Shown here: positions 24,908 through 40,186 of the stretch, one piece after another
How the letters are laid out: every line of letters begins with the position of its first letter
Position numbering within the stretch: position 1 is the stretch's first letter
Virus record (IMG/VR): IMGVR_UViG_3300025652_000144
Coordinates: 1-43,159 of that record
Direction: 5' to 3' (one strand)
Length of the DNA: 43,159 nt
Origin: a virus
The notes under the pieces: model-generated
The model's database searches: none
The model's input: only the letters and a program-made list of their open reading frames with translations
What the model was told of the DNA's origin: nothing
Made by a program: the position numbers and the translations under genes

Positions 24908-25287
24908 AGCTAACCCTAAGCGCGAACAAAGTAGCTGAACAGCGAACCGCGATTAACGTAATACGCGACGCTAGAGAAGTAGCCCCCGTTGAGGTGACTA
25001 TTTCTTTGGGTACATTCACCCTCGACTGCGATGAAAAAGCAGATTCTCGAATGAGTAACGCGCTGCTGTTGTGGGATTCGTTAAATATTACAACGTTGGA
25101 TTGGACGCTGTCAGATAACAGCGTTGTGACGTTAACTAAAACGCAGCTGCAAGAGATGTACGATGCAACGCTCGTGGCTCGCGGTTCGCGCTCACTTAAT
25201 TTACATGCTTACGCCGCCAGCTTAAAAGCAACGCTCCCCGTAGAAGATTTTGCTTATATGTTCGACGCAGACCTTTGGGATATTTAG
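24904..25287 (+). CDS. tail-accessory protein with DUF4376-like part (127 aa)
   Basis: The ATGA overlap gives the start. The region EKADSRMSNALLLWDSLN, then WTLSDNSVVTLTKTQLQEMY and AYAASLKATLP, matches the DUF4376 pattern seen in small proteins or fibre C-termini next to tail fibre genes: a residue run 'D..S...I..A...W......WT..DN..V.LT..EL......' and a helical end. The family's biochemical role is unknown; it is a tail or fibre accessory. It ends with ADLWDI, two bases before the chosen start of the next gene. Confidence 0.6.
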   Translation: MKLTLSANKVAEQRTAINVIRDAREVAPVEVTISLGTFTLDCDEKADSRMSNALLLWDSLNITTLDWTLSDNSVVTLTKTQLQEMYDATLVARGSRSLNLHAYAASLKATLPVEDFAYMFDADLWDI

Positions 25288-25288
25288 T

Positions 25289-25879
25289 TTGCTAGAGGCC
25301 GATTGGGAGTTATCAGATAGGCCTCGGAAAATGGCTTTATTGATTGATGACTGTCAGGTCTCTTATTTATCCCCTACGAGTAGTATTGTAAATAATGTGA
25401 AACGGCTTTTAAACGAGTTTAGGGGCGTAGGCGCTGAGATATTTTGGAGCGTATTCGTGTGCCGCGAAGATGACGGTCAGTTTGGTTCTTTAGATAGGTT
25501 TTATGGGGCTAGGTTTAAAGAAGTTTTGTATACAGACGCCGATGGTGAGCAGGTATTGCCTGAGCTCTCTCCTACGGAGGATGAAGCATCAGAAAAACGG
25601 TTACATGTAAGTAGAAGTTTAGATATGTTCCGCTCTTTTAACCTTGACGAGCGACTATCTGCTTGCTCAATAGACACAGTAGTTATTGTCGGGATGTGGA
25701 CTGATCATTGCGTTACTGCCACTGCTTTTTCGGCTATGTCTTACGGTTACGATGTTGTAGTTGTTAGTGACGCTACTGCGTCGTGTAGCGACTTACATAA
25801 TAACGCTCTACAGCTACTAGGTTCTACAGTGGCTAAGGTACTAGACACATCTAGCGTTTTAAAGGACTTTAAAAAATGA
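25289..25879 (+). CDS. isochorismatase-like cysteine hydrolase (196 aa)
   Basis: The family fold is clear: a first strand with catalytic-type Asp (MALLIDDCQVSYL), an intermediate EKRLHVSRS with the expected Lys, and VVIVGMWTDHCVTATAF holding the nucleophile-position Cys. VVVVSDATASCSDLHNNAL follows as in the family. Start is uncertain. TTG at 25289 has GGGA upstream and lies just after the previous stop; ATG at 25250 overlaps the previous gene; ATG at 25331 would start at MALLIDD. Members hydrolyse isochorismate, nicotinamide and related amides; the nicotinamidase metal site is not evident. The substrate is unknown. It sits between tail genes and a spermidine-synthase-like gene, with which it overlaps (ATGA). 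Confidence 0.75.
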   Translation: MLEADWELSDRPRKMALLIDDCQVSYLSPTSSIVNNVKRLLNEFRGVGAEIFWSVFVCREDDGQFGSLDRFYGARFKEVLYTDADGEQVLPELSPTEDEASEKRLHVSRSLDMFRSFNLDERLSACSIDTVVIVGMWTDHCVTATAFSAMSYGYDVVVVSDATASCSDLHNNALQLLGSTVAKVLDTSSVLKDFKK

Positions 25880-26941: not shown

Positions 26942-27171
26942 ATTGAAGAGTAAAAGTGGGTATTTAATAGTAAATATGAGTAATTATCGTACTATAATTT
27001 ACCTCCACTTAAGTTAGGTAAGTCTAAGTATTTAAAGAGAAAAGTAGCTAAAAGTAAGATCCCAGCTATCGCAACCCCCTAGGGGACGCCATCTCTTTAA
27101 GTGCTTGTTCTTACTTAATTTTTTAGCCTTCAATCTTTCCTTGTGCCAATTTTGTGACAGTGACATAATTC
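26942..27171. other. candidate attP region with interleaved inverted repeats
   Basis: This AT-rich, gene-free stretch upstream of the integrase contains several structured elements. TATTTA/TAAATA arms lie at 26961-26976. TTAAAGAGA (27032-27040) pairs with TCTCTTTAA (27092-27100). AAGTAAGA (27052-27059) pairs with TCTTACTT (27109-27116). The two pairs interleave rather than nest. In their middle lies a spacer-less 10-bp palindrome CCCCTAGGGG (27076-27085). This is the right place for attP core and integrase/Xis arm sites. No tRNA-like sequence was recognised, so the host attB cannot be named. Confidence 0.4.
27141..27169 (+). promoter_or_regulatory. possible sigma70-type promoter for the integrase
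   Basis: TTGTGC (27141-27146) and CATAAT (27164-27169) are spaced by 17 bases and lie 43 bases before the integrase ATG. The -10 is good and the -35 weak. The GTGACA repeats fall in the spacer, and operator site 2 lies immediately downstream. Confidence 0.3.
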
Positions 27172-27174
27172 GCT

Positions 27175-27191
27175 TATTAGCGTCACTAATA
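27175..27191. promoter_or_regulatory. operator-type palindrome, site 2 (integrase)
   Basis: TATTAG and CTAATA are separated by CGTCA. The site matches the shared motif and lies 20 bases before the integrase ATG and just after the candidate promoter, where a bound protein would block transcription. Confidence 0.6.
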
Positions 27192-28530: not shown

Positions 28531-28577
28531 ATTAACGCACTCTTTTTGCAACAGTTGTACTAAAAGAGTGCGTTAAT
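28531..28577 (-). terminator. intrinsic terminator after the HTH regulator gene
   Basis: Perfect 16-base arms, ATTAACGCACTCTTTT and its complement, lie around a 15-base loop; on the minus strand the stem is followed directly by a run of T. The stop codon of the regulator gene (28573-28575) falls inside the first stem arm. It would separate the upstream minus-strand operon from the excisionase-like gene. Confidence 0.75.
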
Positions 28578-29142
28578 AGAAACGGATGGCTAGGAGAGCA
28601 AACTTCTTTAGCACTTTACTAGATGGAGGGAGTGTATCGCACCCGTAGATGTTAAAGGTTTTAACGCCGCGTTCTTTTACGACAAAGACTTTCGGTTTAA
28701 TAGCACCGTCGAGATACTTCATCTCGATAACTTCTAGGTGAGATCCGTGAACGACATCGAACTTTCTACCAAACGCTTTGAAAGAAGGGACATCGACTTC
28801 GATTAAAAATGAATGCTCGGATTCTGAGGTGTAGTGAGAGGCCGTAGTTTTCTTTTTTGCCGCATCCGACAATTGGTAGTGCGTTTCTATCTGTTTAATA
28901 TTTGGCAACTGCGCAATTATTGTCGGATCGATTTCGACAGGAGAAACGTCAAGGAAGTTAGCCATTTTAATGACCGCTTGAGGCCCCATCTCAGTGAGAT
29001 TATTTAGGTATTGAGAGATGGCACCTTGTGTCCAGCCTAACTGTTTAGCAGCTTTGACTTGAGTAAACTTCATCTCTGATTTTTTTCTCTCCCAAATCCG
29101 TCTGAGATTATTCGCGACTTCCTTTTGGTGTGCTTTGTTCAT
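28573..29142 (-). CDS. HTH transcription regulator, CI-type repressor candidate (189 aa)
   Basis: I start at the ATG at 29142 because GGAGG lies five bases upstream; the frame is open 39 nt further. Residues 27-67 form an HTH_3/XRE domain: FTQVKAAKQLGWTQGAISQY, with the recognition helix TQGAISQYLN, then a further helix ending in NFLDVSP. The C-terminal half (FLIEVDVPSFKAFGRKFDVV onward) is beta-type and may be for oligomerisation. I do not see the Ser/Lys dyad of S24/LexA-type self-cleaving repressors. It is the best candidate for the protein that binds the seven palindromes. Its gene overlaps the nuclease gene by 35 nt and ends in a terminator. Confidence 0.75.
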   Translation of the reverse strand: MNKAHQKEVANNLRRIWERKKSEMKFTQVKAAKQLGWTQGAISQYLNNLTEMGPQAVIKMANFLDVSPVEIDPTIIAQLPNIKQIETHYQLSDAAKKKTTASHYTSESEHSFLIEVDVPSFKAFGRKFDVVHGSHLEVIEMKYLDGAIKPKVFVVKERGVKTFNIYGCDTLPPSSKVLKKFALLAIRFY

Positions 29143-29536
29143 TATCCCCTCCGAGGGCAGTCCGTGAGATCCAGCCTGCAATGTCCTTTACTGGTAGGCT
29201 GTGCTCGTTGAAGTAGGCTTTGGTGATCGGAACCCCAAAGTCATCGCATATTATCACGCCTCTCTGCGCATTTCCTATTACTAATGCGACATCTGGGGTG
29301 CTTTCTTTAGCTCGGTTGAGCCATGCGATTTGCAAAGGAGAGAGACAAGTGCGGAGGACAGTCGACTCTCTTTTGGGCAAAGTCTTAATGAATTTATATT
29401 CTACGAACAAAGCTCCAGCTGGCCCCATATAGTAACTGTCGGGCACACCTCCGGTATAGGTGTCGTGAATCTTCCAGCGGTACACATCAGGGTGTAGCTT
29501 TTTATGGACAGACCTGATGAAAGAGTGCTCAGTCAT
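29108..29536 (-). CDS. PD-(D/E)XK nuclease, VRR-NUC-like (142 aa)
   Basis: The signature GGVPDSYYMG...LFVEYKF places catalytic residues at D33, E46 and K48 (PD-x12-ExK). VRR-NUC and Holliday-junction-resolvase-type small phage nucleases have this layout. It would process branched or replicative DNA. The ATG lies only two bases from the T-rich tail of the upstream terminator and has no Shine-Dalgarno sequence. Translation may therefore depend on read-through transcripts, or be leaderless from a promoter inside the terminator. It overlaps the repressor-like gene downstream. Confidence 0.7.
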   Translation of the reverse strand: MTEHSFIRSVHKKLHPDVYRWKIHDTYTGGVPDSYYMGPAGALFVEYKFIKTLPKRESTVLRTCLSPLQIAWLNRAKESTPDVALVIGNAQRGVIICDDFGVPITKAYFNEHSLPVKDIAGWISRTALGGDNEQSTPKGSRE

Positions 29537-35380: not shown

Positions 35381-37882
35381 TTACAAAGCTGCGAGTAACT
35401 TTTTATCGCTGTCGTCAAAATACTTTTCGATAATTTCTTCGTACCGCTCGTCGTTCATGACCCAGTTGGTTTCTACACCGCGAATTGGGCTACAGATTCG
35501 ATCAGCTAAGTGAGCGCGTTTGCGTATTCTTTCTAGTCCGCACCGCTCTGCTTTTTTAGTGAATTCGCGCTGCGACAAGCGGTCGTCAGTCAGCACGATG
35601 TAGACAATTCTTAGATGTTCTAGGGGAACCATTGTGTAAGGACTGTTGCGATCCGCGATCCACGCTTTGAGGAAGCGTTGCGCGGTGAGGATTTCTTGTC
35701 CCTGCATTACATTCGTCAGCTCTATATCAAGCAAATCGACGAAGAAATCTAAGTCACCATTCTTAACGGCTGAGAAGAATTCCTCTATGATTGACATAGT
35801 GACTTGCTGCATTTTAGCCTTGGCCGTATTCTCGATTGGTGTACGCACTAATCGTTTGTCTACTTTGTACGTGCTAAGTATTCCTGCTAAGTTCGGCAAC
35901 TCTTTTTCTATTTCATCGATGTTGGCGATGACTTCTGGGTACACCTCTTCGAGTTTCTTTTCTTGTCGGGGCGCTATGTTGTAGCGCCTGTCGCCTTCTT
36001 CAATCTTTACTGCATCTGCACGGTTAGTGAGGAAGATAAAGTTAGTGAAGTTAGGCATCTCAACTTGGTTGCTACGCATCGCTCGTATGGTCATAGTATT
36101 TTCAGTGATGGCGTTCTTGAGTTTGTCAGCAATCTTCATCGCGCCTGAGTTGGCCGAGGCCATGTGGAACTCATCGACAACTAAGAAGATAGCTTGACGC
36201 ATGTACAAGTTGAACTGTTCTTCTATGTTCTGTAAGGCTCGCATCGGTACGTGCTCGTCACCGAACAAAGGCCTGAGTACCTTGGTGTAGAAGATACCTT
36301 TACCTGTGCCAGGCACACCTTGCATCACCCAAGCGGTCATTGCTTTGCGCCGTGTTTGAAAGATGTACGCTAGCCAGTTAATAAAACGCTCGGCTTCGTC
36401 TGCCTCACCGCCTAGAATGTGCTTGGTGAGTTTGTACACCAAGGGGCAGGCGTCTTGTAGTTTATCGATGTCGCCCATAGTGAGCGGTTCGTCAGGCTCT
36501 ACAGGGTTGAGCATGTAGTCTGTTTGTCGATACATGTTGACGTGGTAGGGCACGTTAGTCAGGTTCACTGCAGCGTCGTTCGATGCCGGGTCAAAAACGA
36601 CTCTTGCATCGGGTATGAAATCGGGCTTAGGCCTACCGTGCGATCGCATAAACCCTTCGGTGCTGGATGAGCTGCACGGAAGTAGTGGGAACTCTTTTGT
36701 AAACTGGTTGAGGTTAGGGTCAAACACGCCGTTGTAGTAAGTATCGGTATAGTAATCACGAAGAACGATAGGTTGGTTGGCTCGGCCTTGCTTATCAAGC
36801 TCTGCTTTGTAACTCTCAAACAGGGTTGCGTAGAAATCAGGATCTGACTTCTCGATCGAGAACAGCGGCTCACCTTTGAAGTTGTGCATATACGTCGGAT
36901 CATCGAGCATAAAAAAGTAAGCATTGCTGTCGCCTCCGTTTATGTTGCAGCGTATGTAAGGCGGCTGGGTGTCGTCGACGATGGTGATCGACATCCTGTC
37001 TGGGTTTTGTAGAACTTCTTGTGTCTTGTTGGCTAGCGTCACCATAGTGACCTTAGCCTTCTTAGCATTAAATCCTTTAGCAGTACGTAGCTCATTCTTA
37101 ACAGCGTTAGACTGCTGGTGGATGACTTCAGGGCTGATGTCTTCCATCAGCGCGGCTAGGTCTAGCGTTGGGTATTTACCCACGACCCGCGTGACCCGCT
37201 CTGAGGGAGAGGCGAACGGGTCAGCGGTGGGATCTTCAAAGGTAGGAGGAGCAATGAAGATGAGTTTAGAGTTGTCAGCGACGCTCAGATCAACAGGATA
37301 CTTGAGTGAATGTCCGTTGGCTGACAGCTCGATCTGGGACTTAAACAAGTCGGATTCGAAGTTCGCAGACTGCAAAAATAGCTTCATGGCTTTTGCAGGC
37401 ATAGCGTAGGTCAGAAAAATAAATATATGTAGCGATACTTTTTCAGCTTTTAGCCCGAGGCTTGATGAAGCCTGAGCAATATAGCTGACGTTGTGAAACG
37501 GTTCAGGCAGCTCGGCTAACACCTGCGCAGCTAATCTGGTAACGTCATTCGCCACGAACTTAGCAGGCTGTATGTTGCCTGGTAGTTTGATGCCGTCTAT
37601 GTCCAGCACCAGCAGGTTCGAGTAGGCTATGCGATCGCATTTTCCTGCTCGGCTCTCAGCGTTTAGTGGTCTCTTTAGCGGGCCTTTGAGTAAGCAATGG
37701 CCGCTGTTACCGTGCGCGTTGAGTCTAGCCTCGAACTGAGCTAGACCGTTCTCGTCTAGTGATACCTGTTCGTGGTACGAGTTTACTTTTTTGACGTGGG
37801 GGTAGGGAGTAAACCCATCTACCGGTGAATGTTTTTTAGATAACTTGAGGCCATTACTCGCCTCTAGAAATGTGAGTTCCAT
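35381..37882 (-). CDS. PrimPol-like primase fused to SF3 helicase (833 aa)
   Basis: GGAGGG precedes the ATG by a few bases. The N-terminal part has archaeo-eukaryotic primase signatures: LLVLDIDGIKL with D94 and D96, KVSLHIF with S150 and H152, and a VDLSVADNSKLIF acidic region at about 198-205. The C-terminal part has an SF3-type (DUF5906) ATPase: Walker A GVPGTGKG (522-529), Walker B IFLVVDEF, and NFIFLTNRADAV as motif C/sensor. This is the replicative primase-helicase of the phage and would work with the family A polymerase. A palindrome lies 20 bases upstream. It is followed, 42 bases later, by the nuclease operon. Confidence 0.88.
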   Translation of the reverse strand: MELTFLEASNGLKLSKKHSPVDGFTPYPHVKKVNSYHEQVSLDENGLAQFEARLNAHGNSGHCLLKGPLKRPLNAESRAGKCDRIAYSNLLVLDIDGIKLPGNIQPAKFVANDVTRLAAQVLAELPEPFHNVSYIAQASSSLGLKAEKVSLHIFIFLTYAMPAKAMKLFLQSANFESDLFKSQIELSANGHSLKYPVDLSVADNSKLIFIAPPTFEDPTADPFASPSERVTRVVGKYPTLDLAALMEDISPEVIHQQSNAVKNELRTAKGFNAKKAKVTMVTLANKTQEVLQNPDRMSITIVDDTQPPYIRCNINGGDSNAYFFMLDDPTYMHNFKGEPLFSIEKSDPDFYATLFESYKAELDKQGRANQPIVLRDYYTDTYYNGVFDPNLNQFTKEFPLLPCSSSSTEGFMRSHGRPKPDFIPDARVVFDPASNDAAVNLTNVPYHVNMYRQTDYMLNPVEPDEPLTMGDIDKLQDACPLVYKLTKHILGGEADEAERFINWLAYIFQTRRKAMTAWVMQGVPGTGKGIFYTKVLRPLFGDEHVPMRALQNIEEQFNLYMRQAIFLVVDEFHMASANSGAMKIADKLKNAITENTMTIRAMRSNQVEMPNFTNFIFLTNRADAVKIEEGDRRYNIAPRQEKKLEEVYPEVIANIDEIEKELPNLAGILSTYKVDKRLVRTPIENTAKAKMQQVTMSIIEEFFSAVKNGDLDFFVDLLDIELTNVMQGQEILTAQRFLKAWIADRNSPYTMVPLEHLRIVYIVLTDDRLSQREFTKKAERCGLERIRKRAHLADRICSPIRGVETNWVMNDERYEEIIEKYFDDSDKKLLAAL

Positions 37883-37902
37883 TAACCCTCCTACAGGTCA
37901 AG

Positions 37903-37919
37903 TATTAGTCCGGCTAATA
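37903..37919. promoter_or_regulatory. operator-type palindrome, site 6 (primase-helicase)
   Basis: TATTAG and CTAATA are separated by TCCGG. It lies 20 bases before the primase-helicase ATG, between it and the csrA-like gene stop (37937). Confidence 0.6.
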
Positions 37920-37936: not shown

Positions 37937-38116
37937 TCAGCTGATCTTTTTTAGGTATATTTCTTCGCGATCGATTTTGACGTCGTTTTCAGCTTCGAAA
38001 GTTAGCCGAACTTGGTTTTTGTCGATCTTTGATACCTTAATACTTGCTAGTAGGCCGTTCTGATCGTGGATAATTATGTTTTGGTCTGGTTTGCGTGTGA
38101 GCACTAGTCGTGACAT
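37937..38116 (-). CDS. csrA: CsrA/RsmA-family translational regulator (59 aa)
   Basis: The sequence MSRLVLTRKPDQNIIIHDQN, then NQVRLTFEAENDVKIDREEI (residues 34-53) and YLKKIS, matches CsrA throughout: the initial LxLTRK strand, III, NQVR(L/I).(I/F)EA and V.I.REEIY. L6, R8 and R50 correspond to E. coli CsrA L4, R6 and R44, which contact RNA. The family dimerises and binds GGA in RNA hairpins, often over ribosome sites. The start codon overlaps the polymerase stop (TAATG), so it is coupled to the polymerase. It is too short for usual gene-length cut-offs. It may control host or phage messages; target unknown. Confidence 0.88.
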   Translation of the reverse strand: MSRLVLTRKPDQNIIIHDQNGLLASIKVSKIDKNQVRLTFEAENDVKIDREEIYLKKIS

Positions 38117-39924
38117 TATTTGCTATATCCTTTGTCGAACCCACCTTCTGCAGCGAGAGGTAGGTCTGGAGCCCATGATGGGGGAGTACACATGTGAGAA
38201 ATTAATTTTTCCATTGTAGCATGAGGATCTTGCTCGGAGCCAAGAAAAATAATTTCATCGTGTACGGTTAATACTATGTCCCCTATTAAAGTTGGGTCTC
38301 TTTGTATCCTGAGCATGCCGTCAGTGATAATAATGCGCGCTAGTGCTTGCACAATATTCTCAACGATGCTTCCGCCCCAGGTGTACTCTTTTTTACGTGC
38401 CTCGTAAGTCAGTTGCCCGGACATGCTGTCTATGGTCAAGTTGTGGTACTTGAGGGCGAGTTTATTGGGCAGATAAACACTGCGATCGGTAAAGGTCAAG
38501 CAGCGCCACTTCTCAAAGTAACCTGCGTTCATGGTAGAGGCGAGCTTTTCTTCCATGCGCCGCCATAACAGCGGTATGTTAGGGTAGGTTGAACGGTACG
38601 TGTTGACGATCTTTTGCGCTTGGTGCGTTGGCAGCTTAAGCGGTGGGCCCATAACGCCGGTCTCTAGCGTCCGGTCAAACGTAGCGTGCCCCATTCCGAA
38701 ACCTAAGCCAAGCACTGCTACCTTACCGACGAATCGTTCAGTTGGGTCGTCGTACTTATTGATGGTTCGGTTATAAATATTTTTAGCAAAGATACTGTAG
38801 ACGCATTTGTTGGCTCTGAACTGCTCAAGCAGCTCAAGCTCACCGGCTAGCCAGGCTAAGACGCGTGCTTCGATAGCTGACAAGTCAGCGACAAAGACGA
38901 GCTTCCCTTCGGGGGCTTCCAACGCTAGGCGCAAGGGTGAGTTGCGCGGCATGTTCTGCACGTTAAGTTTTTCGGCTCCTCCGAATCTCCCCGTGTGGGC
39001 GTTGTAATAACCGATCGGCATGCTGATGGTGCCATCTGGGTTACGTGCGTCGATGAAGCGTTGTGCCCGGGTCTCACTGATGCGACTCTTTGCTGCGCCT
39101 CGTGCTGCCCATATATGGTCGTAGTTAGGGTTGGCTTTTTTTAGTTCTAGATACCCTTTGTCTGCTTTGCCGAACGCAGGTATCGGTTTTCCTGTGGTGG
39201 GGCTGGTCTTAGTGGGTACGGTAAGGCCTAACGATTCAACCAATTCGGCAAATTGCTTGTTACTTGAAAGTATTTTGGCGTCATACCCGCTGGCTTCAAT
39301 AAGCCCTTTACTGCGTGCGATTTCTGAGTCGCGGTGTTTGGTTAGCATTTCGAGGTTCGCGATCAGCTTTGGCTCGCAGAACATACGGCAGGTCATGTCA
39401 ATCAAATCGTGCTCGTCGTCTATGACGGCCGTCGACAGCGTTCTGTAAACCATATAAGTCAGCTCGACGTCCTGTATGCAATACTCACCGAGCTCTTCTT
39501 CTAGGTCAGGGCTTAGGTCTAGTATGCCTTTGGTTTTTTCAAGGGCATCGCCTTTTCTCAGTTTTTCATCGTCAGGCCACATACGCATGGCTACTTCTTT
39601 TAATGACGAGCCTCTACCGGGCCAGGTGGCTTTCGCTAGGGCTTTGGTATCAGCATAATAAGCTGGAGTAAGGCCGTAATAACGAGTGAGGATGTAGCCG
39701 TCGAAAGGGGTGTTGTGCGCTATGAGCGTGGAGTTGCTCCAGTCTATTTCTCGTAGCGCGTCTTCGGTCTCTTCTGAGTTGTACCATTGTGTTTCTCCAT
39801 CGTCGATTTTTATACCGACGCCATGTACATGGAACTCCTTGGCTTTTACGTAAGACATGGTGTTGAGTTTTGTTAGGTTGTGTTTTGAGTCGTAGTAGGT
39901 CTCAAAGTCAAGCGTGACGTGCAT
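38116..39924 (-). CDS. family A DNA polymerase with 3'-5' exonuclease (602 aa)
   Basis: I start at ATG 39924, eight bases after AAGGA; the frame is open 72 nt further. The exonuclease is DEDDy type: D6 and E8 (LDFETYYD), D75 (HNTPFDG), and Y148/D152 (YCIQD). Polymerase motif A has D347 (ADLSAIEARVLAWLAGE), motif B R397, K401 and L405, F409, G410 (RFVGKVAVLGLGFGMG), and motif C H555, D556 and E557 (VHDEI). L405 aligns with E. coli Pol I F762 and F409 with Y766. There is no 5' nuclease domain. It is the replicative polymerase; its stop overlaps the csrA-like gene. Upstream it overlaps the small 79-residue gene by 17 nt. Confidence 0.92.
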   Translation of the reverse strand: MHVTLDFETYYDSKHNLTKLNTMSYVKAKEFHVHGVGIKIDDGETQWYNSEETEDALREIDWSNSTLIAHNTPFDGYILTRYYGLTPAYYADTKALAKATWPGRGSSLKEVAMRMWPDDEKLRKGDALEKTKGILDLSPDLEEELGEYCIQDVELTYMVYRTLSTAVIDDEHDLIDMTCRMFCEPKLIANLEMLTKHRDSEIARSKGLIEASGYDAKILSSNKQFAELVESLGLTVPTKTSPTTGKPIPAFGKADKGYLELKKANPNYDHIWAARGAAKSRISETRAQRFIDARNPDGTISMPIGYYNAHTGRFGGAEKLNVQNMPRNSPLRLALEAPEGKLVFVADLSAIEARVLAWLAGELELLEQFRANKCVYSIFAKNIYNRTINKYDDPTERFVGKVAVLGLGFGMGHATFDRTLETGVMGPPLKLPTHQAQKIVNTYRSTYPNIPLLWRRMEEKLASTMNAGYFEKWRCLTFTDRSVYLPNKLALKYHNLTIDSMSGQLTYEARKKEYTWGGSIVENIVQALARIIITDGMLRIQRDPTLIGDIVLTVHDEIIFLGSEQDPHATMEKLISHMCTPPSWAPDLPLAAEGGFDKGYSK

Positions 39925-40147
39925 GTTGGCAGTCCTTTGCGATTGGTTGGTTAGCGTTGCATTCTTGTGCAGCGTAAATGTCGGCGTACCGTTCATTAAA
40001 TTCTTCTAGTAAATATTTGTGGGTTAGAGGCCTGCGGCCAAGTAGGTAGACCTCAAGGTATTCTCGGAATTGGTCAGTGTTAACACCGGCTTTTTGGTGT
40101 AACTCCCTGGTTGATGCGTCTATTTTTAGATATTTTTGAACTTTCAT
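39908..40147 (-). CDS. hypothetical small protein heading the polymerase operon (79 aa)
   Basis: A strong AGGAGG precedes the ATG. The product starts MKVQKYLKIDASTRELHQKA and continues helical and charged (QFREYLEVYLLGRRPLTHKY, LLEEFNERYADIYAAQEC). It could be a small helical adaptor or antirepressor-like protein; no family is recognised. It overlaps the polymerase gene by 17 nt and has operator site 7 just upstream, so it is first in the polA-csrA operon. Confidence 0.6.
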   Translation of the reverse strand: MKVQKYLKIDASTRELHQKAGVNTDQFREYLEVYLLGRRPLTHKYLLEEFNERYADIYAAQECNANQPIAKDCQHARHA

Positions 40148-40164
40148 TACTTCCTCCTAGAAAA

Positions 40165-40186
40165 TAATAGTAACACTAATACTAAT
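40165..40186. promoter_or_regulatory. operator-type palindrome, site 7 (polymerase operon)
   Basis: TAATAG, TAACA, CTAATA: one mismatch from the consensus left arm (AATAG instead of ATTAG). A second CTAAT half-site follows at 40182-40186 as at site 4. It lies 17 bases before the ATG of the small first gene and overlaps the likely promoter. Confidence 0.5.

Follow-up and report, generated by a model that had tools for sequence, protein, structure and literature searches.

What does a homologue of the bacterial regulator CsrA do between the DNA polymerase and primase genes of a phage? The stretch of DNA analysed here, which we call the window, comprises a complete IMG/VR record (43,159 bases). 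It encodes an integrase and a helix-turn-helix regulator and therefore probably belongs to a temperate tailed phage. A first-pass annotation of the sequence had pointed to a short csrA-like gene between polymerase and primase, and this location is correct, the neighbours being polA and a DUF5906/VapE-type primase-helicase gene. The genes of the block are as follows.

39908..40147, minus strand: 79-aa ORF that immediately precedes polA and opens the p79-polA-csrA block (ORF list)
38116..39996, minus strand: polA, DNA polymerase family A (PF00476, DNA_pol_A, E=7.6e-25)
37937..38116, minus strand: csrA, 59-aa CsrA-family protein (Pfam PF02599, PHROG 9500, AlphaFold2, PDB fold matches)
35381..37882, minus strand: primase-helicase (DUF5906/VapE-like; PHROG 24712), directly downstream of csrA (Pfam, PHROG)

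The 79-aa ORF had no match in Pfam or PHROG. Judging from homologues such as that of locus L006, the true start of polA is probably an internal ATG at 39921 (MHVTLDFETYYD).

The assignment of the small gene to the CsrA family rests on several searches. Pfam CsrA (PF02599) matched the ORF with E=4.9e-14 and 52.5 bits, above the cut-off of 27, and PHROG 9500 ("CsrA-like regulator") matched it with E=1.4e-11. The Pfam alignment covers residues 4-56 of the ORF and positions 2-50 of the 53 in the profile; the earlier description of an end-to-end match thus holds for nearly the whole profile but is slightly generous, as a loop after the first strands has about 4 extra residues in the phage protein. 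A profile built from 54 relatives retrieved bacterial CsrA, RsmA and RsmE structures from the PDB at 1e-10 to 1e-11, while a single-protein phmmer search of the PDB gave no match at 1e-3. The product, modelled by AlphaFold2 as a monomer, not a dimer, was predicted to adopt the CsrA fold (mean pLDDT 93.1), and its 14 best fold matches in the PDB were all CsrA, RsmA or RsmE (probability 1.00, TMq 0.57-0.79).

The residues that contact RNA are also present. In an alignment with the E. coli protein, E. coli L4, T5, R6, R44 and E46 correspond to L6, T7, R8, R50 and E52 of the window protein. All five are kept, including the L, R and R positions singled out by the first-pass annotation (L6, R8 and R50), and R7 is replaced conservatively by K9. 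In E. coli CsrA, L4 and R44 matter most for RNA binding (PMC7652899). The H43 position is occupied by D in the window protein and in 94% of the members of the phage group. The equivalog cut-offs of the NCBIfam CsrA models TIGR00202 and NF002469 were missed (40.9 vs 70.1 and 41.1 vs 73 bits). The window protein is a member of the CsrA family, which does not imply equivalence to host CsrA. It is predicted to be a CsrA-type translational repressor that forms a dimer and binds RNA. The gene itself is no surprise, since phage CsrA proteins are already known. The expectation that it would be missed by gene callers does not hold generally, csrA being annotated in several Vibrio phages in GenBank.

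What sets the gene apart is the constancy of its position. A scan of IMG/VR with the csrA protein gave 104 relatives with csrA in the same genomic place, which marks the ORF as more than a chance reading frame, and the order vwa-polA-csrA-primase-exonuclease-helicase was found in nearly all of the 80 loci kept, as far as the contigs reach. Three further scans used the primase as query, so that the presence of csrA did not drive selection. In the pooled set csrA lies directly upstream of the primase in 290 of 290 loci with a readable primase start, with no locus lacking it; these loci include contigs fetched repeatedly and hold 164 distinct csrA DNA sequences and 154 distinct proteins. The slot between polA and primase does not vary in any of them. 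When a csrA-less phage polymerase was used as query, 80 further loci were obtained, to which KPP25 and RHph_TM27A were added, and csrA was absent from all 82 of these more distant polA relatives within the stretches covered. Being fixed in the phage group and absent from these relatives, csrA is a trait of one clade.

Such constancy could in principle reflect a degenerate or neutral copy retained by hitch-hiking, since the gene is short, lies in a compact operon and usually has no Shine-Dalgarno (SD) sequence. The relatives argue otherwise. Identity to the window's CsrA drops to 25%, and yet among the 154 distinct proteins L2 is conserved in 100%, L4 in 99%, T5 in 92%, R6 in 98%, R44 in 100% and E46 in 96% (E. 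coli numbering); PF02599 was matched by all 54 diverse relatives tested (E<=1e-3). This points to purifying selection, and we regard hitch-hiking, already disfavoured, as very improbable.

The spacing of the block bears on how csrA is expressed. In the window the TAA stop codon of polA overlaps the ATG of csrA by 1 nt at 38116, which confirms the TAATG junction reported earlier. Across most of the 290 loci the distance from the polA stop to the csrA start is between -11 and +11 nt, and an SD-like motif precedes csrA in only 61 of 290. With this tight spacing and the usual absence of an SD, we infer that csrA is likely to be translated by coupling or re-initiation. That csrA is made when replication starts, as the first-pass annotation put it, is suggested by the position of the gene.

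Several other features of the window were noted. The 40201-41325 gene encodes, by Pfam, a DUF2201 metallopeptidase and VWA domain (173.6 bits), and the PHROG 1314 label "HNH endonuclease" looks wrong. An Nmad5 protein (nucleotide modification associated domain, PF18757; 41315-42097) lies between it and a MoxR-like ATPase; the MoxR-VWA pair is conserved together with the replication block. In the late region an isochorismatase-family hydrolase (25250-25879, PF00857, E=1.5e-28) adjoins a 236-aa ORF that may have a spermidine synthase or methyltransferase fold, and the two are possible metabolic cargo. Beside the integrase, the sequence CAACCCCCTAGGGGACGCCATC at 27060-27110 is similar to the 3' end of a tRNA and is a possible attP; a search for it in 289 genomes gave only two weak matches, whose loci were run through ARAGORN, and no convincing host. 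Three MAGs (Neomarinimicrobiota, Planctomycetaceae and Rhodospirillaceae) that hold relatives of the primase were considered as hosts and rejected, as these relatives look like binned phage contigs. Of the nearly identical polA-csrA-primase loci L301 and L302, one was assigned to a MAG of Planctomycetaceae and the other to one of Rhodospirillaceae; since near-identical loci fall in two phyla, the binning is unreliable and at least one host assignment is wrong.

The position of csrA also bears on whether the protein acts on the host. Genes for host manipulation are typically patchy in distribution and mobile in position. Here csrA showed neither the patchiness nor the variable position of a host-directed auxiliary or moron gene, lying between polA and primase in 290 of 290 loci, and being so fixed among the replication genes speaks against a host-metabolism gene of patchy occurrence. 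The proposal that host mRNAs (those of metabolism, of motility or of defence, such as cas) are the main targets of the phage CsrA, with or without competition with host CsrA or sponge RNAs, does have indirect points in its favour: the RNA-binding surface is wholly retained, plasmid RsmQ alters hundreds of host proteins and just 16 of 733 plasmid proteins (PMC9928087), CRISPR-Cas of Serratia is repressed by RsmA and an anti-CRISPR role has been proposed for phage RsmA (PMC8450108), and knock-down of the csrA homologue of PTXU04 gave smaller plaques (PMC11879866). Against it stand the invariant slot of csrA and the candidate sites described below, which are concentrated on the neighbouring phage genes and go with the presence of csrA. 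We consider a mainly host-directed role unlikely, though one to be kept in view. The rewiring of host translation, the leading idea of the first-pass annotation, accordingly gives way, as csrA never leaves the polA-primase slot and its candidate sites lie on phage replication genes.

The sites that CsrA is known to bind have GGA in the loop of a hairpin, which often covers the Shine-Dalgarno sequence (PMC7652899). In the window three hairpins of this kind were found near the starts of genes in the block.

40145..40169, minus strand: candidate CsrA site, hairpin UAUUAUUUUC-UAGGA-GGAAGUAAUG (hairpin class enriched in relatives)
37903..37919, minus strand: second GGA-loop hairpin upstream of the primase, UAUUAG-CCGGA-CUAAUA (leader comparison)
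37882..37901, minus strand: candidate CsrA site, primase SD hairpin UUGACCU-GUAGGA-GGGUUAA (covariation in 38 distinct relatives)

The 79-aa ORF has both its SD and its start codon covered by the first. The 3' arm of the primase SD hairpin extends to the start codon; this hairpin appears in both the MFE and the centroid fold of the 65-nt leader, with a stability no better than that of shuffled sequences. The two primase-leader hairpins are spaced 20 nt apart, GGA to GGA. The upper one was rejected as a CsrA site, because the palindrome that forms it (TATTAG-N5-CTAATA) carries GGA in the loop in 1 of 80 leaders, the window's own, and recurs at other intergenic sites. The palindrome is a dispersed DNA element with copies in the window at 27177, 28453, 32055, 35365, 37905 and 40167, one of them mismatched; the copies are intergenic or in leaders, before the integrase, helicase, exonuclease, primase and 79-aa ORF, and similar elements occur in the csrA-primase gaps of relatives. 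It looks like an operator of the phage helix-turn-helix regulator (28573-29181, minus strand) or a promoter element. No Rfam family, CsrB-like RNAs among them, matched the window.

We compared the leaders of relatives. A GGA-loop hairpin over the SD was found for the gene upstream of polA in 62% of 47 non-redundant leaders and for the primase in 40% of 80, versus 20.5% of the 560 other genes with an SD in the same loci (Fisher 7e-9 and 2e-4, respectively; these and the other p-values overstate the evidence, because the compared sequences are related). With loops of at most 6 nt, the shares of the three sets were 60%, 34% and 12%. The loop is constant while the stems vary: before polA we found CAUCC-AGGA-GGAUG, ACGUC-AGGAG-GACGU, GUCG-AGGAG-CGAC, UAGUAC-AGGAG-GUACUA, GUCAU-AGGAG-AUGAC, AGUU-AGGAG-AACU and others. 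Most loops read C/U-A-GGA, which fits in part the CAGGA repeat of CsrB and lacks the first A of ANGGA.

The arms of these hairpins match each other within a leader. When arms were swapped between leaders, the pairing score dropped from 7.99 to 2.84 for the gene before polA (z 10.6) and from 5.80 to 3.29 for the primase (z 6.3). A slight excess of pairing was seen for the other SD genes too (2.92 vs 1.92), so that the signal may in part be a general one. In the primase stem, for which 38 distinct hairpins could be aligned in one register, 5 of 7 pairs changed on both sides, with double changes in 21 cells compared with 7.6±2.1 in shuffles (0 of 500), the best of all slid registers. For most of the leaders folded, including the window's own, the energies (MFE z-scores) were no better than those of shuffled sequences; the support for the hairpins is complementarity and covariation, not minimum free energy. 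The primase hairpin was weak or absent in most of an AT-rich sub-group of loci (L163-L229).

Where else does the hairpin occur? It was found in 50% of 24 leaders of a family of about 102 aa encoded between vwa and polA, and in 6-17% of the leaders of exo, hel, moxR, orf260 and RT226. As that family alone is also high, the signal lies around polA, csrA and primase. The family, which we take to be DUF3310-like, is matched by PHROG "nucleotide kinase" families; at L006:3488-3811 and in about 24 related leaders its ribosome-binding site (RBS) forms a near-palindromic hairpin, UACU-AGGAG-AGUA. The CsrA regulon may include this family as a third member.

The hairpins might instead function in translational coupling or in control by a different regulator, for instance autocontrol by the polymerase or primase, with csrA a passenger or acting elsewhere. 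T4 DNA polymerase (gp43) represses its own translation by way of a hairpin close to the RBS (PMC3014915), the stop and start codons of the block are closely packed, and the folding energies are unremarkable, all of which would suit such a role. On the other hand, the loop holds GGA, the determinant of CsrA binding, while the stems vary, and the hairpin is missing from csrA-less relatives with a related polA. By the same gene-choice rule it precedes polA in 28 of 47 csrA-containing loci vs 1 of 23 csrA-less ones (Fisher 4e-6), a contrast of one clade with another that amounts phylogenetically to about a single event and in which the upstream gene was identified by rule and not by established orthology. 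We think this explanation quite improbable.

The reading that we prefer, with a probability of roughly 0.55, is that the protein is a phage-internal, self-limiting translational repressor of replication genes. CsrA would be made by translational coupling to polA and would bind GGA in hairpin loops overlapping the RBS of the short gene that precedes polA. Repression of that gene would, through coupling, damp polA and csrA itself. CsrA would also bind the GGA-loop hairpin over the primase RBS, and the resulting negative feedback could limit or time the output of replication proteins. There is precedent in E. coli, where a site that covers the SD of csrA lets the protein repress its own translation (PMC7652899). 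A fuller version, in which throughout this large group of uncultured aquatic phages a core-operon CsrA represses the polymerase-csrA unit and the primase via co-evolving hairpins, as a self-contained, RegA-like viral Csr circuit derived from a bacterial regulator, comes near to an even chance but falls a little short of it. Internal and host-directed roles may also occur together.

How does this compare with what is known of phage CsrA? A survey in 2020 found csrA in 30 of 2,517 phage genomes (PMC7366521), further phage csrA genes were found in IMG/VR (PMC8450108), and according to a 2025 study the role of phage CsrA homologues had not been tested before (PMC11879866). In the open-access literature searched, we came across neither an obligate polA-csrA-primase block nor candidate sites on phage genes. 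What goes beyond the known is the constancy of the csrA slot together with the hairpins at adjoining start sites. Most proposals on phage CsrA look to the host, and the present group offers a specific and cheap test on phage leaders.

The nearest isolated phages show about 31-35% identity in the polymerase (KPP25, RHph_TM27A) and primase (KPP25, phiA008); csrA was not found in the examined stretches of Kochitakasuvirus KPP25, Aeromonas phage phiA008 and Rhizobium phage RHph_TM27A. Other mobile elements do carry CsrA, namely F116 (RsmM), Lessieviruses such as JC1, Vibrio phages, PTXU04 and the plasmid with RsmQ; the Vibrio phage copies are 38-41% identical to the window's. In other phages csrA lies among hypothetical or structural genes, as in JC1, where gp47 (csrA) adjoins capsid genes (PMC9144972), and has been discussed as host-directed or as a moron. 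Here, in contrast, it is an obligate member between polA and primase with candidate local sites, which sets it apart from the patchy copies so far listed in phages.

Bacterial CsrA, RsmA and RsmE (PF02599) share with the window protein the sequence family, the predicted fold, the RNA-contact residues and candidate GGA-loop sites over the SD; they differ in the H43 position and the extra loop, and the window gene sits in a phage replication operon. T4 RegA offers an analogy of role and location only. It is a small dimeric RNA-binding repressor that occludes translation starts, and all T4-related phages carry its gene in their core replication cluster (PMC3014915). RegA is an unrelated protein, however, with unstructured, A+U-rich sites, whereas the candidate sites here are GGA-loop hairpins. 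In these uncultured aquatic phages a bacterial global regulator seems to have been turned into a dedicated regulator of viral replication.
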